In this document: piece by piece, positions 12,812 through 40,601 of the stretch | Position numbering within the stretch: the first letter of the stretch is position 1 | Layout: every line of letters starts with the position of its first letter | Source: Phormidesmis priestleyi BC1401 | GTDB taxonomy: Bacteria; Cyanobacteriota; Cyanobacteriia; Leptolyngbyales; Leptolyngbyaceae | Reading direction: 5' to 3' | Assembly (NCBI RefSeq): GCF_001650195.1 | Contig: NZ_LXYR01000001.1 | Span: forward strand, 134,358 to 198,357 | Length of the DNA: 64,000 bases | The notes under the pieces: generated by a model | The model's input: only the letters and a program-made list of their open reading frames with translations | Told to the model about the DNA's origin: nothing | The model's database searches: none | Program-made: the position numbers and the translations under genes

Positions 12812-12821
12812 ATACCCCAGT
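12812..12821 (-). promoter_or_regulatory. Motif ACTGGGGTAT upstream of dnaK, possible -10/operator
   Basis: On the minus strand this reads ACTGGGGTATACC, 137 bp before the dnaK start. The same ACyGGGGTAT arrangement sits at a plausible promoter of the Rrf2 gene and of the porin gene. The TATACC could be an extended -10. Only a half-site is present here. Functional assignment is inference. Confidence 0.35.
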
Positions 12822-36994: not shown

Positions 36995-37720
36995 CTAACG
37001 CAGTTCTCGGACCTCTGCCAATGCGTCTCTTCGCAGGCGTTCAGAAATTCTAAATAGCTCCTGTCCTGTATGGAGATGGCTATCGTCGTAATTATTTGTG
37101 AAATACTCCAATTCATCAATGCCATCAGACACCTGATTGAGGCAATGATAAAGATTGGCGGCTGCCCCTGCCGCGATCGCAGGGTTAGGCAGCGAACGAA
37201 GAACGGTTTGAGCTTTGCTGAGAGCCTGATGACAGTCTTTGATATAAGCCTGAAACGCCTCCATCAGTTGATCATCAAACGGGTCAGCAGACAGCTCTTT
37301 CATCTGAGCCTTGAGAGGGCGCAAAATCAGATTTAACTGCCGATTAACTGGCGTGAAAACTCGGTTGAGCCATAGCCGAAGCTGACTATCAACGTCTTGC
37401 TCTGCCTGACGCTGTTGGCGATAAACTGCCTGCGCGGCAGCCGTGCGTTTTTGGCGATCGCTGGCACTTTCACCCGCAAATCCATCCGCGTCGAACTTCA
37501 GTTGATATTGAAGCTGATGGTCATACGATCTGCGACTTTGCGGGTCGCTTAAAACTTCATAAGCTTGATTGATGCGAGTAATTTTGTCGTGAGTTGCGGT
37601 GTCTTGATTGACATCTGGGTGAAACCGCTTTGCCATCTGCCGATAGGCTTTTTTAATCTCCGCCTGGGTTGCATTTGGCTCAACATCTAGAGTTTGGTAG
37701 TAGCTGGATGAATCTGGCAT
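36995..37720 (-). CDS. DnaJ-domain protein with helical C-terminus
   Basis: 241 residues. Residues 1-70 are a J domain (YYQTLDVEPNATQAEIKKAY, RQMAKRFHPDVNQDT with HPD, INQAYEVLSDPQSRRSYDH). The rest is alpha-helical without Gly/Phe or CTD domains, so it is a specialised J-protein, not a general DnaJ. Its Hsp70 partner is unknown, although the window has a DnaK3-like gene. It stands alone in transcription. Confidence 0.88.
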   Translation of the reverse strand: MPDSSSYYQTLDVEPNATQAEIKKAYRQMAKRFHPDVNQDTATHDKITRINQAYEVLSDPQSRRSYDHQLQYQLKFDADGFAGESASDRQKRTAAAQAVYRQQRQAEQDVDSQLRLWLNRVFTPVNRQLNLILRPLKAQMKELSADPFDDQLMEAFQAYIKDCHQALSKAQTVLRSLPNPAIAAGAAANLYHCLNQVSDGIDELEYFTNNYDDSHLHTGQELFRISERLRRDALAEVRELR

Positions 37721-37903
37721 AGTGCCATTTTAAAGCGAGGAGGCAGCATGAGGGAACAAAAATTTTGTCTCTCCTCCCTCCTCGTTTTGGGCATCGTCAA
37801 GATCAGACAATCATCTCTTGCGGCATCACCATCGCCAGTCCAATCTCGGTAGTCTCTAGTACTGGCTCTGCCAGAACCGTTTTTTTGGGAAAGGCTAAGT
37901 CTT

Positions 37904-38350
37904 TTAGATGTAATACATAAAATCGAGTTGTCGCCGAGAGTCGCGACGATCGCGCAGCTCTTGCAGCGTATATTTTTGCAGAATTGCACTGGCAGCGCGA
38001 TGAGCTTCTTGCCAGATTTCAAGAATCACTGCACCCTCTAGAGTCTTGTCGCTTTTTGCGTCGCTGTCTTGAGCATTCGGCTGCGTTTCTAACCCTTCTA
38101 TGCAGATAAAGACCTCTAGAAGATTGATTTTCCAAGGCTCGCGGGCTAGAGTATAGCCGCCTTTTGCCCCGCGCTGTGAGCGGATAATTCCGCCGCGTCT
38201 GAGGGTGGCAAGCAGTTGTTCTAGATAGCGATCGGGAATATTTTGCTGGGCGGCAATCTGCCGAATTTGCAACGGTTCGCCAGTGTCGTAATGAGCCGCC
38301 AGTTCGATGAGCGCTAAAAGGGCATACTCGCTTTTACAAGAAAGTTCCAC
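37904..38350 (-). CDS. Rrf2-family transcriptional regulator
   Basis: 148 residues from GTG 38350 (VELSCKSEYALLALIEL is the usual family start; GTG 38362 would add four residues). The winged helix is LQIRQIAAQQNIPDRYLEQLLATLRRGGIIRSQRGAKGGYTLA. Only one cysteine is present in the region (VFICIEGLETQP) where IscR and NsrR have three, so a classical 4Fe/2Fe cluster site is missing or altered. Its own promoter region carries the inverted repeat described at 38408, suggesting autoregulation, and the porin gene behind it in the genome has a similar half-site. It lies between a DnaJ-like gene and the porin. Confidence 0.88.
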   Translation of the reverse strand: MELSCKSEYALLALIELAAHYDTGEPLQIRQIAAQQNIPDRYLEQLLATLRRGGIIRSQRGAKGGYTLAREPWKINLLEVFICIEGLETQPNAQDSDAKSDKTLEGAVILEIWQEAHRAASAILQKYTLQELRDRRDSRRQLDFMYYI

Positions 38351-38407
38351 GGGTAAGATCACAGGGTAAAGGAGCAGTTCTGTCAGGTGATCCCAACACT
38401 TCTAATC

Positions 38408-38432
38408 ATACCCCGGTTTTCCACTGGGGTTT
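38408..38432 (-). promoter_or_regulatory. Inverted repeat operator-like site at the Rrf2 promoter
   Basis: ATACCCCGGT-5-ACTGGGGTTT is an inverted repeat (8 of 10 paired). Read on the minus strand it ends GGGGTATGAT, which can serve as an extended -10 of the Rrf2 promoter, 58 bp before GTG 38350. A repressor on the repeat would block that promoter. The same half sequence lies at the porin and dnaK upstream regions. Confidence 0.5.
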
Positions 38433-38451
38433 AGTAGATTCACAGACTCAC

Positions 38452-38477
38452 AAAAAAGCCCTGCACAAGGCAGGGCT
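38452..38477 (-). terminator. Rho-independent terminator of the porin gene
   Basis: On the minus strand AGCCCTG pairs with CAGGGCT across a 7-base loop and is followed by TTTTTT. It lies 24 bp beyond the porin stop codon. Confidence 0.85.
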
Positions 38478-38500
38478 AAATATTTACCGAATGTCAAAAC

Positions 38501-40231
38501 CTAGAAGGTAAATGTTGTCCGAACGGTGCCAACATAAACGGTGTCGTTTGCGCTGTTGTTCTCTGGGTTGAAGATCACAATAATGCCCGGAGTAACTGAG
38601 ATGTTGTTGTTCAACTGATAGCGATATAGACCCTCGACGTGGAAGGAGGAGTTCCGGTCTTCTCCCACGTTTCCAAGACTGCTGTTGGTCACTTTAGGAG
38701 GCTGACCCAGCACAATTCCTGCCAGGTTGCCTTTCTTGCCCAAATCAGGGAATGCAAGAGTCACTGCCCAGTTCCAAATGTCAGCATCTGCATTAACGAT
38801 CGGGCTTTCCCGACGAGCCGTTGTATAGCCAGCCCAGCCTGCCAGCGTAAACCCAGGAGTCACACGAATAGCACCCTCTAAACCAAACTGGTCAGAAGAT
38901 GTCGCCACATTGCCGAAAGGACGGTTTGCAAGAGCGCTGCCTGTAGCACTCGTGACACCAACGTTGGTGCCTTTATCGTAAGAACGGACGTAAGTAAGAC
39001 CTAAATCAATGCCTTGAGTGGGTCTAAAGGCGATCTGAGCCAGAGCAGCGCTAGAGCCGTTAAACAACCCATTTGCATTCGTTGGGTCAGAGGCGTTGTC
39101 AGCAAGATAGCCCAATGACACAGTAAGAGCTTGACCCAACGGATAGTTGAGGGTTACACCCGCACCACTGGCACTGTTGCTGCTGCCCTGACGGTAAATG
39201 GGGTTAAATCGACCAAATCGAGAGATTGTGCCCTGCCCATCACTCGCTAGCAGGGGGTTGAAGTTGGGAATGTTGTTGTAAAACTCGCCGCCGATCGCGT
39301 CAACGGTCACGCTTCCTGCACCGATGGGGAAACGGTAGTAGAGCTTGTCTACAAAGATCGAGTTGTTGGCGGGAGTGCCAGAAGGGCTAGCACCCTCATA
39401 GGACAAACGTGCCATGTTGGTTCCAGTGGCAGCACCAAAATCGGTAATGTTGCGAGCTTGAAGACGAGTTAAGAGCGTATCTTTGCCCGTGAAGCTGGTT
39501 GCAAGGCTGAGACGAACTCGATCGCTAAAGGTCTGGTTTTCGTCAACGTTAGTTCTCGCAGGACCAGGAAGTCCAGCATCAATTCGTCTCTGTTGAACGG
39601 AACCGATCGCTTTGCTGCCACCCAATGCCCCAGAGAACGAGAAAATCGCTTCTCCTCTGAGCTTGGTGGTGGTGGAGAACTGCTGCTTTTCAAGGGTGGT
39701 AGCGCGAGCTTCTAGAGAATCGACGCGACCGCGCAGGGTTGCCAATTCTGCTGAAAATTCTTCCTGTAGCTTTTGCAGGGTTGCCAGGTCTTCTTTCTTA
39801 ACCAGGTCAGCCGTGGAAGCCGCAATTAACTCGTTGACGCGATCGAGACATGCGTTCAAACCTGCTGCAAACTCGAAGCGAGTCAGGGCGCGATTGCCGC
39901 GAAAGGTCTTGTCGGGGTAGCCCACAATGCAGCCATAGCGCTCGACGAGCGATTGCAGTGCTTGAAACGCCCAGTCAGTGGGGCGCACGTCAGAGAGCTG
40001 AGAAACCGAGGTAACTTGGCTGACTTCGTTGTTTACCCCTTCGCTACCGTAAGCTTTTACTTGGTCGAGGGAGGCAACGCTGGTCGAAGAGGGAGCCGCT
40101 TGCGCGATTTCGAGGGGCTTGGGTGCATCAGCAGCACTCGCAATTCCAGCCGTTACGATCGTTGCAGAGATAGTCAAAGTAGCACTCAAGAGTGCTTGAG
40201 TCGCAAAAAGCGACTTTAGGGTATTTTTCAT
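38501..40231 (-). CDS. Iron uptake porin (SLH domain + OprB-type barrel)
   Basis: Outer-membrane porin of 576 residues from ATG 40231 (the frame also opens at GTG 40249). There is a Sec signal peptide (ATQALLSATLTISATIVTAGIASAA), an SLH domain near 60-110 (DVRPTDWAFQALQSLVERYG, FRGNRALTRFEFAAGLNACL) that binds peptidoglycan, a short coiled coil (FSAELATLRGRVDSLEARATTLEKQ), and a beta barrel ending in the C-terminal aromatic VRTTFTF. This architecture is common to cyanobacterial iron-uptake porins; substrates may also include other small ions. The Rrf2 regulator gene follows it on the same strand. Confidence 0.9.
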   Translation of the reverse strand: MKNTLKSLFATQALLSATLTISATIVTAGIASAADAPKPLEIAQAAPSSTSVASLDQVKAYGSEGVNNEVSQVTSVSQLSDVRPTDWAFQALQSLVERYGCIVGYPDKTFRGNRALTRFEFAAGLNACLDRVNELIAASTADLVKKEDLATLQKLQEEFSAELATLRGRVDSLEARATTLEKQQFSTTTKLRGEAIFSFSGALGGSKAIGSVQQRRIDAGLPGPARTNVDENQTFSDRVRLSLATSFTGKDTLLTRLQARNITDFGAATGTNMARLSYEGASPSGTPANNSIFVDKLYYRFPIGAGSVTVDAIGGEFYNNIPNFNPLLASDGQGTISRFGRFNPIYRQGSSNSASGAGVTLNYPLGQALTVSLGYLADNASDPTNANGLFNGSSAALAQIAFRPTQGIDLGLTYVRSYDKGTNVGVTSATGSALANRPFGNVATSSDQFGLEGAIRVTPGFTLAGWAGYTTARRESPIVNADADIWNWAVTLAFPDLGKKGNLAGIVLGQPPKVTNSSLGNVGEDRNSSFHVEGLYRYQLNNNISVTPGIIVIFNPENNSANDTVYVGTVRTTFTF

Positions 40232-40249
40232 GATCACTTCCGTATTCAC

Positions 40250-40601
40250 ACCAGTAGACTGAGAAGACCCACAAAGCTTTGAATCCCAACAGGATTACCT
40301 GAAGAAATTCCAGATTTCTCTGAAAAGCTTTCTATGGACATTTCGCTAGTATACCCCAGTGGAATTCTTAATCCACACGTTGGTCAAAACTTTTAATCGA
40401 GTGCTGACTTGACTTCTAGGGCTGTTGGCAATTTTTATGTAACTTGGTACACAGAAAAGATTCATCAAATCTTCAACGTCTTGAGCGAGTGAACGATGCT
40501 TTTTGCTTGAAGGGTTTAAGAGTTTCAGCCTCTGGTAGATGTCGAGCTAAGGGGATGTCCGGCTACGATTACCCATAGAAGTTTACATTAAGTGAGACGC
40601 T
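40250..40601. other. Intergenic region between the porin and a phosphoesterase, divergent promoters
   Basis: 352 bp with no gene. Near the porin side it contains the candidate minus-strand promoter/operator at 40348-40360. The rest is A/T-rich leader with no RNA gene or repeat that I can recognise. Confidence 0.5.
40348..40360 (-). promoter_or_regulatory. ACTGGGGTATACT promoter motif of the porin gene
   Basis: Read on the minus strand, ACTGGGG runs directly into TATACT, a good -10 hexamer, about 117 bp before the porin ATG. The ACTGGGGTAT part matches the half-site at the Rrf2 and dnaK upstream regions. The other half of the Rrf2 palindrome is not conserved here. Confidence 0.45.

Follow-up and report, generated by a model that had tools for sequence, protein, structure and literature searches.

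A 25-bp operator-like dyad over the promoter of a putative CymR-like Rrf2 gene in cyanobacteria and its probable link to cysteine synthesis

Introduction

The closest described counterparts of the locus analysed here are regulators of the Rrf2 family. CymR of Bacillus subtilis and Staphylococcus aureus works with CysK; the B. subtilis CymR-CysK complex is described as repressing cysteine genes, and partners of CysK as usually ending in isoleucine (PMC4961446, PMC12895370, PMC2869319, PMC9338935). The Pseudomonas aeruginosa IscR site is reported to overlap the regulator's own promoter, like the dyad described below, and the type 1 IscR consensus published in the same source has the length and spacing of this dyad and is compatible with 17 of its 25 letters (PMC3899308). 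Among cyanobacteria, Slr0846 of Synechocystis appears in a review in a list, as an uncharacterized IscR (PMC7058544). In the titles and abstracts of the open-access literature, a scope that leaves most subscription literature aside, we recognised no account of this operator or of a cyanobacterial rrf2-cysK operon. The kind of regulator is known from Firmicutes. To our knowledge, the control of cysteine synthesis in cyanobacteria is poorly described.

The Rrf2 protein considered here has the Rrf2 fold, length and C-terminal isoleucine in common with CymR, and both are without the iron-sulfur ligand set. An association with CysK also appears common to both, seen here as adjacency of rrf2 and cysK in relatives and not in the window itself; this conserved gene arrangement is one difference from CymR. 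The comparison with CymR covers the protein and its cysK context. The motif has the 25-bp dyad, 5-bp centre and ATA..TAT outer ends of an IscR type 1 operator, but the inner letters differ, the cyanobacterial protein has no cluster ligands, and the target would be cysK, not isc.

Results

The locus and its dyad

The window, meaning the whole 64-kb stretch of DNA that was analysed (G000:C1:134358-198357), belongs to a 5.55-Mb cyanobacterial genome, and in a protein scan the closest relatives of its Rrf2 protein were found in Leptolyngbya-like genomes. Read along the minus strand, the locus consists of the porin gene, a terminator-like hairpin, the dyad, rrf2 and, after a 183-bp gap, a gene with a DnaJ domain:

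38501-40249, minus strand: porin gene (NCBIfam 'iron uptake porin')
38457-38477, minus strand: terminator-like hairpin (8 pairs and a T run) separating the porin gene from the rrf2 promoter, from a scan with 4 such matches in the region against 3.6 in shuffles
38408-38432, minus strand: operator-like dyad of 25 bp, AAACCCCAGTGGAAAACCGGGGTAT, letters checked; the sole genome match with fewer than 3 mismatches
38405-38410, minus strand: -10 element TATGAT of the Rrf2 promoter, assigned from the hexamers at orthologous sites, overlapping the dyad
37904-38362, minus strand: Rrf2-family regulator gene, 152 aa (Pfam Rrf2, 1.1e-34)
37765-37889, minus strand: decayed cysK remnant between rrf2 and dnaJ, from local alignment to the sister-species cysK
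36995-37720, minus strand: DnaJ-domain gene (Pfam DnaJ, 5.3e-23), which follows cysK in relatives

The original prediction placed a shared operator-like motif at the rrf2 and porin promoters and a similar half-site before dnaK, and every motif letter that it gave is found at the position stated. At rrf2 these letters form the minus-strand arrangement AAACCCCAGT-N5-ACCGGGGTAT, and the dyad does lie over the -10 element, as had been claimed. The accompanying claim of an extended -10 fails: the TG one base upstream of TATGAT is missing, so the element is no classical extended -10. No -35 hexamer is evident at the rrf2 promoter, which the promoter scan did not list, and this leaves room for activation by Rrf2.

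The dyad is real and more than a chance likeness, as judged from its frequency. One match at up to 3 mismatches was found in the window against 0.06 expected, and the pattern AWACYCCRGT-N5-ACYGGRGTWT has, in the whole 5.55-Mb genome, one perfect site and six with 3 mismatches, compared with two matches for the reversed pattern used as control. The expectation that the motif would be commoner than chance is thus borne out for the full rrf2 dyad, but not for the half-site: ACYGGRGTWTA has 15 genome matches against 11 for its reversed control, so the half-site by itself gives no genome-wide signal.

Conservation of the dyad and the -10 element

The Rrf2 protein scan returned 471 relatives, of which the best 80 were kept for upstream comparison. 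Among these 80 loci, the dyad stands upstream of the rrf2 orthologue in 78; the other two, L003 and L060, are cut by contig ends (44 and 283 bp of upstream sequence, respectively) and fall outside the operator count. The best dyad match within 400 bp upstream has 0 mismatches in 36 loci, 1 in 25, 2 in 9, 3 in 7 and 4 in one, while a single shuffle of each upstream region gave at least 5 mismatches in 80 of 80. The operator consensus across orthologous loci, AAACCCYAGTGnnnAACCGGAGTATACTa, carries more than 1 bit at positions 1 to 28 save 12 to 14; outside it, information is mostly 0.2 to 0.4 bits, with an A-rich stretch immediately downstream. The final six bases of this consensus are the -10 element, which reads TATACT at 63, TATAAT at 10, TATGAT at 4 and TATTAT at one of the 78 orthologous sites. 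A unique dyad that is conserved over the rrf2 -10 makes autoregulation, as originally proposed, probable and well supported by sequence, with Rrf2 itself as the presumed ligand of the site.

Of 194 genomes sampled over the phylum, 37 have an operator site at no more than one mismatch; much of this sample belongs to a single family with genomes of about 2 Mb, most of which lack the site. When loci were fetched at that threshold, Rrf2 lay beside the operator in 28 of 30, and cysK followed Rrf2 in all 28. A wider regulon sought with the full pattern was rejected on the same count. Places L237, L239, L241, L245 and L133 of this search carry no assignment. One perfect operator without an adjoining Rrf2 was observed in genome G002 (L234 4637-4661, the same place as L115), flanked by genes that, judging by their translations, encode a TPR-repeat protein and a lysozyme-like protein.

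Linkage of rrf2 to cysK and decay of either gene

In 76 of the 79 loci that allow the test, drawn from the same best 80 of 471 relatives, cysK follows rrf2 on the same strand. Of the three without it, L017 offers just 320 bp of downstream sequence, and the one remaining locus of the 80 ends too early for the test. Besides the window, the loci that have lost the linked cysK include L018, L006 and L235. Of the 80 loci, 71 have the dnaJ cluster downstream of rrf2, as does the window. In the sister species the order is operator, rrf2, cysK starting 12 bp past the rrf2 stop, and then dnaJ, and this cysK scores 470 bits against the cysteine synthase A cut-off of 351.

In the window, the interval 37765-37889 aligns locally with the sister-species cysK at a score of 89, compared with 53 for the best of 200 shuffles, and consists of two 20-residue matches in different frames, to CysK residues 65-84 and 87-106. 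As these alignments read, the linked cysK of the window is a decayed remnant. The host genome has another cysK at G000:C55 (77% identity), with no operator in its upstream region. The reverse condition is seen in G231 (L248, G231:C112), where an intact cysK of 84.6% identity, followed by dnaJ, is preceded by an operator with TATACT (32.1 bits), and where rrf2 is a remnant in which only the last 36 residues are weakly matched (E 4e-4). Judged likewise from its letters, this locus is the mirror image of the window: cysK is kept and the adjoining rrf2 has decayed.

Operators at other cysK genes

Fifty-three cysK upstream regions from relatives were scored, comprising 50 of 91 cysK places and 3 more; of the rest of the 91, which were left out, 27 had shown a site close upstream beforehand and 14 were weaker matches. 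Rrf2 accompanies 18 of the 53 and is absent from 35. The operator together with a -10-like hexamer occurs 71 to 232 bp upstream of 5 of the 35 Rrf2-less cysK genes, at 26.6, 21.2, 14.3, 13.3 and 8.5 bits. In shuffles, 0.0 of 35 would be expected to score that high, the best reverse-strand score was -4.8, and the background maximum, the best of 46 dnaK and psaA/psaB loci, was 3.9 bits. A few other unlinked cysK genes have degenerate versions of the operator at similar places; 30 of the 35 regions, including that of the host genome's remaining cysK, have no strong site. Among the 18 Rrf2-linked cysK loci, which are from distant genera, 11 lie above that 3.9-bit maximum, while the other 7 fail to exceed it.

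Nature of the Rrf2 protein

The window protein is well above the family cut-offs (119.8 against 30 bits for Pfam, 107.2 against 73.3 for the NCBIfam superfamily). CymR is its nearest named NCBIfam model, with a full-length match of 98.5 bits that misses the curated CymR equivalog cut-off of 195; the cut-off of the IscR model is missed as well, at 69 against 207.6 bits. The C-terminus reads MYYI in all 81 proteins of the comparison (the best 80 of 471 relatives plus the window), with the stop codon immediately after it in 80 of 80. The predicted structure has a mean pLDDT of 77.6, a moderate confidence, and adds little beyond the sequence match. The similarity of many relatives begins at the second GTG of the gene (residue 5), and the start is thus probably at 38350 rather than 38362.

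An alternative that accepts the dyad would make the protein an iron-sulfur or redox sensor like IscR, or an activator of photosystem genes, with the cysK link secondary. Among solved chains, IscR of T. potens comes nearest to the window protein, and a Listeria protein and CymR are also among the nearest; in length and layout the operator matches an IscR type 1 site, and the listing of the cyanobacterial Slr0846 as IscR in the review mentioned above (PMC7058544) points the same way. The ligand set of IscR, three cysteines and one histidine, is nevertheless absent: among the 81 proteins Cys87 is the sole invariant cysteine, Cys9 is present in 79, and Cys137, found in 67, is missing from the window protein. 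The strong linkage to cysK also argues against this sensor. For the photosystem version, the title of a 2009 paper ties an Rrf2-type regulator to psaAB, and Slr0846, also of the Rrf2 type, is reported to affect these genes. The psaAB genes, considered as a target on the strength of that report, were rejected: 30 psaA/psaB loci from 15 genomes all lack the operator. In this respect the present system appears to differ from Slr0846, with which it shares membership of the cyanobacterial Rrf2 family. We regard this alternative as unlikely.

The porin and dnaK half-sites

The original prediction extended control by Rrf2 to the porin gene and pointed to a similar half-site before dnaK:

40351-40360, minus strand: porin half-site ACTGGGGTAT, matched letter for letter by the sister species alone in an alignment of 6 family promoters
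40348-40353, minus strand: porin -10 TATACT, the same in all 6 family promoters of the alignment
12812-12821, minus strand: ACTGGGGTAT upstream of dnaK, 136 bp from its ATG

That Rrf2 controls itself, the porin and dnaK via shared half-sites has some points in its favour. The half-site is perfect at all three genes, ACTGGGGTATACT stands at 40348-40360 on the minus strand as predicted, and the sister species keeps ACTGGGGTATACT at its own porin. Many relatives likewise have a porin gene upstream of rrf2, so that the two are old neighbours, and 3 of the 15 half-site matches in the genome, one being the rrf2 dyad itself, fall within the window. By count, however, the half-site does not stand out from its reversed control (15 against 11), and the decamer CCACTGGGGT, with 9 genome matches against 2 for its control, is followed by TATA at none of the 7 places outside the window.

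Comparison across porins weighs against such control. Matches to ACYGGRGTWTACT within 2 mismatches are absent from 54 of 56 Rrf2-linked porins, no better than shuffles, and the two that have one come from close relatives. Over the 55 linked porin upstream regions longer than 100 bp, full-site scores reach no higher than -2.3 bits, one region of 67 bp being left out of this scoring; the window porin scores -21.5 bits, against 38.7 at the window rrf2. Six family porin promoters could be aligned: ACTGGGGT is shared by the window and the sister species alone, a third porin has a variant, ACTAGAGT / ACTAGAGTAT, that fits the half-site, and three break its conserved letters. Two more distant family porins outside this alignment, L147 and L148, gave no half-site. 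The porin was accordingly rejected as a member of the regulon on the evidence of the 56 linked porins and the six aligned promoters. It probably has its own promoter, with a coincidental likeness to the half-site, although a weak, recently gained half-site may be present. A leader, GGTGTGAATACGGAAGTGATCATG, directly precedes the porin start (40231-40255), and most of the six porins in the family alignment conserve it.

The dnaK half-site has its letters in place but is not conserved: none of 17 other orthologues, that of the sister species among them, has it within 330 bp upstream, and on this ground it was rejected as a regulatory site. In nearer relatives, a conserved promoter-like element sits closer to dnaK. 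The copy in the window is probably coincidental, and joint control of the three genes through half-sites is, on the whole, very improbable.

It is similarly doubtful, to the point of being hard to credit, that another protein binds the dyad, such as the product of the genome's second Rrf2 gene at G000:C10. That gene exists, and G231 keeps operator and cysK beside a mere rrf2 remnant, in a genome where only that locus was examined for rrf2. Against it, the genome search found no dyad match with fewer than 4 mismatches at the second Rrf2 gene, and the dyad accompanies the window-type gene across genera. An RNA hairpin or porin terminator is the least credible reading and was rejected: the inverted repeat does lie downstream of the porin gene, and further places matching the pattern (L238, L240, L242) resemble terminators by eye, but no T run follows the dyad, a terminator-like hairpin already stands between porin and dyad, and of the 78 sites just 1 can pair in the standard way at positions 2/24, 8 can at 5/21 and 1 can at 8/18, so that the symmetry is of the protein-binding kind.

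Discussion

What might the dyad be for? We consider it likely that it is the operator of the adjacent, CymR-like and autoregulated Rrf2, and that the motif probably serves cysteine synthesis rather than the neighbouring porin. In most relatives the promoter is shared with cysK, and the same operator stands at some other cysK genes, which leads us to infer that cysteine synthesis is most likely what the system tunes. An Rrf2 dimer on 38408-38432 would cover the -10 element and repress its own promoter, and in most relatives the same promoter would also drive cysK. Sensing could proceed as in Bacillus: CysK would bind the regulator via its C-terminal isoleucine, in the MYYI tail, and would strengthen its DNA binding when cysteine is plentiful. 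With its linked cysK decayed, the regulator of the host seems to keep a single strong site, at its own promoter, and may still work with the CysK from the other locus. The sequences themselves show the dyad with its conservation and its place over the -10, the linkage of rrf2 and cysK, further operators at cysK genes, the C-terminus and the cysK remnant, whereas DNA binding, repression as opposed to activation, partnership with CysK and the signal are inferred.

Whether the whole of this amounts to a cyanobacterial CymR-like cysteine sensor is, in our estimate, evenly balanced. In such a sensor, MYYI would dock in CysK, the complex would shut the rrf2-cysK operon and, in certain species, a second cysK through the 25-bp operator that covers the -10, and its two halves would be separable, as the window and G231 would illustrate. 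If this reading is true, a widely conserved regulator can be assigned an operator and a core target, together with a partner that experiments can test, and the lineage of the window and G231 would be natural tests of each half alone.
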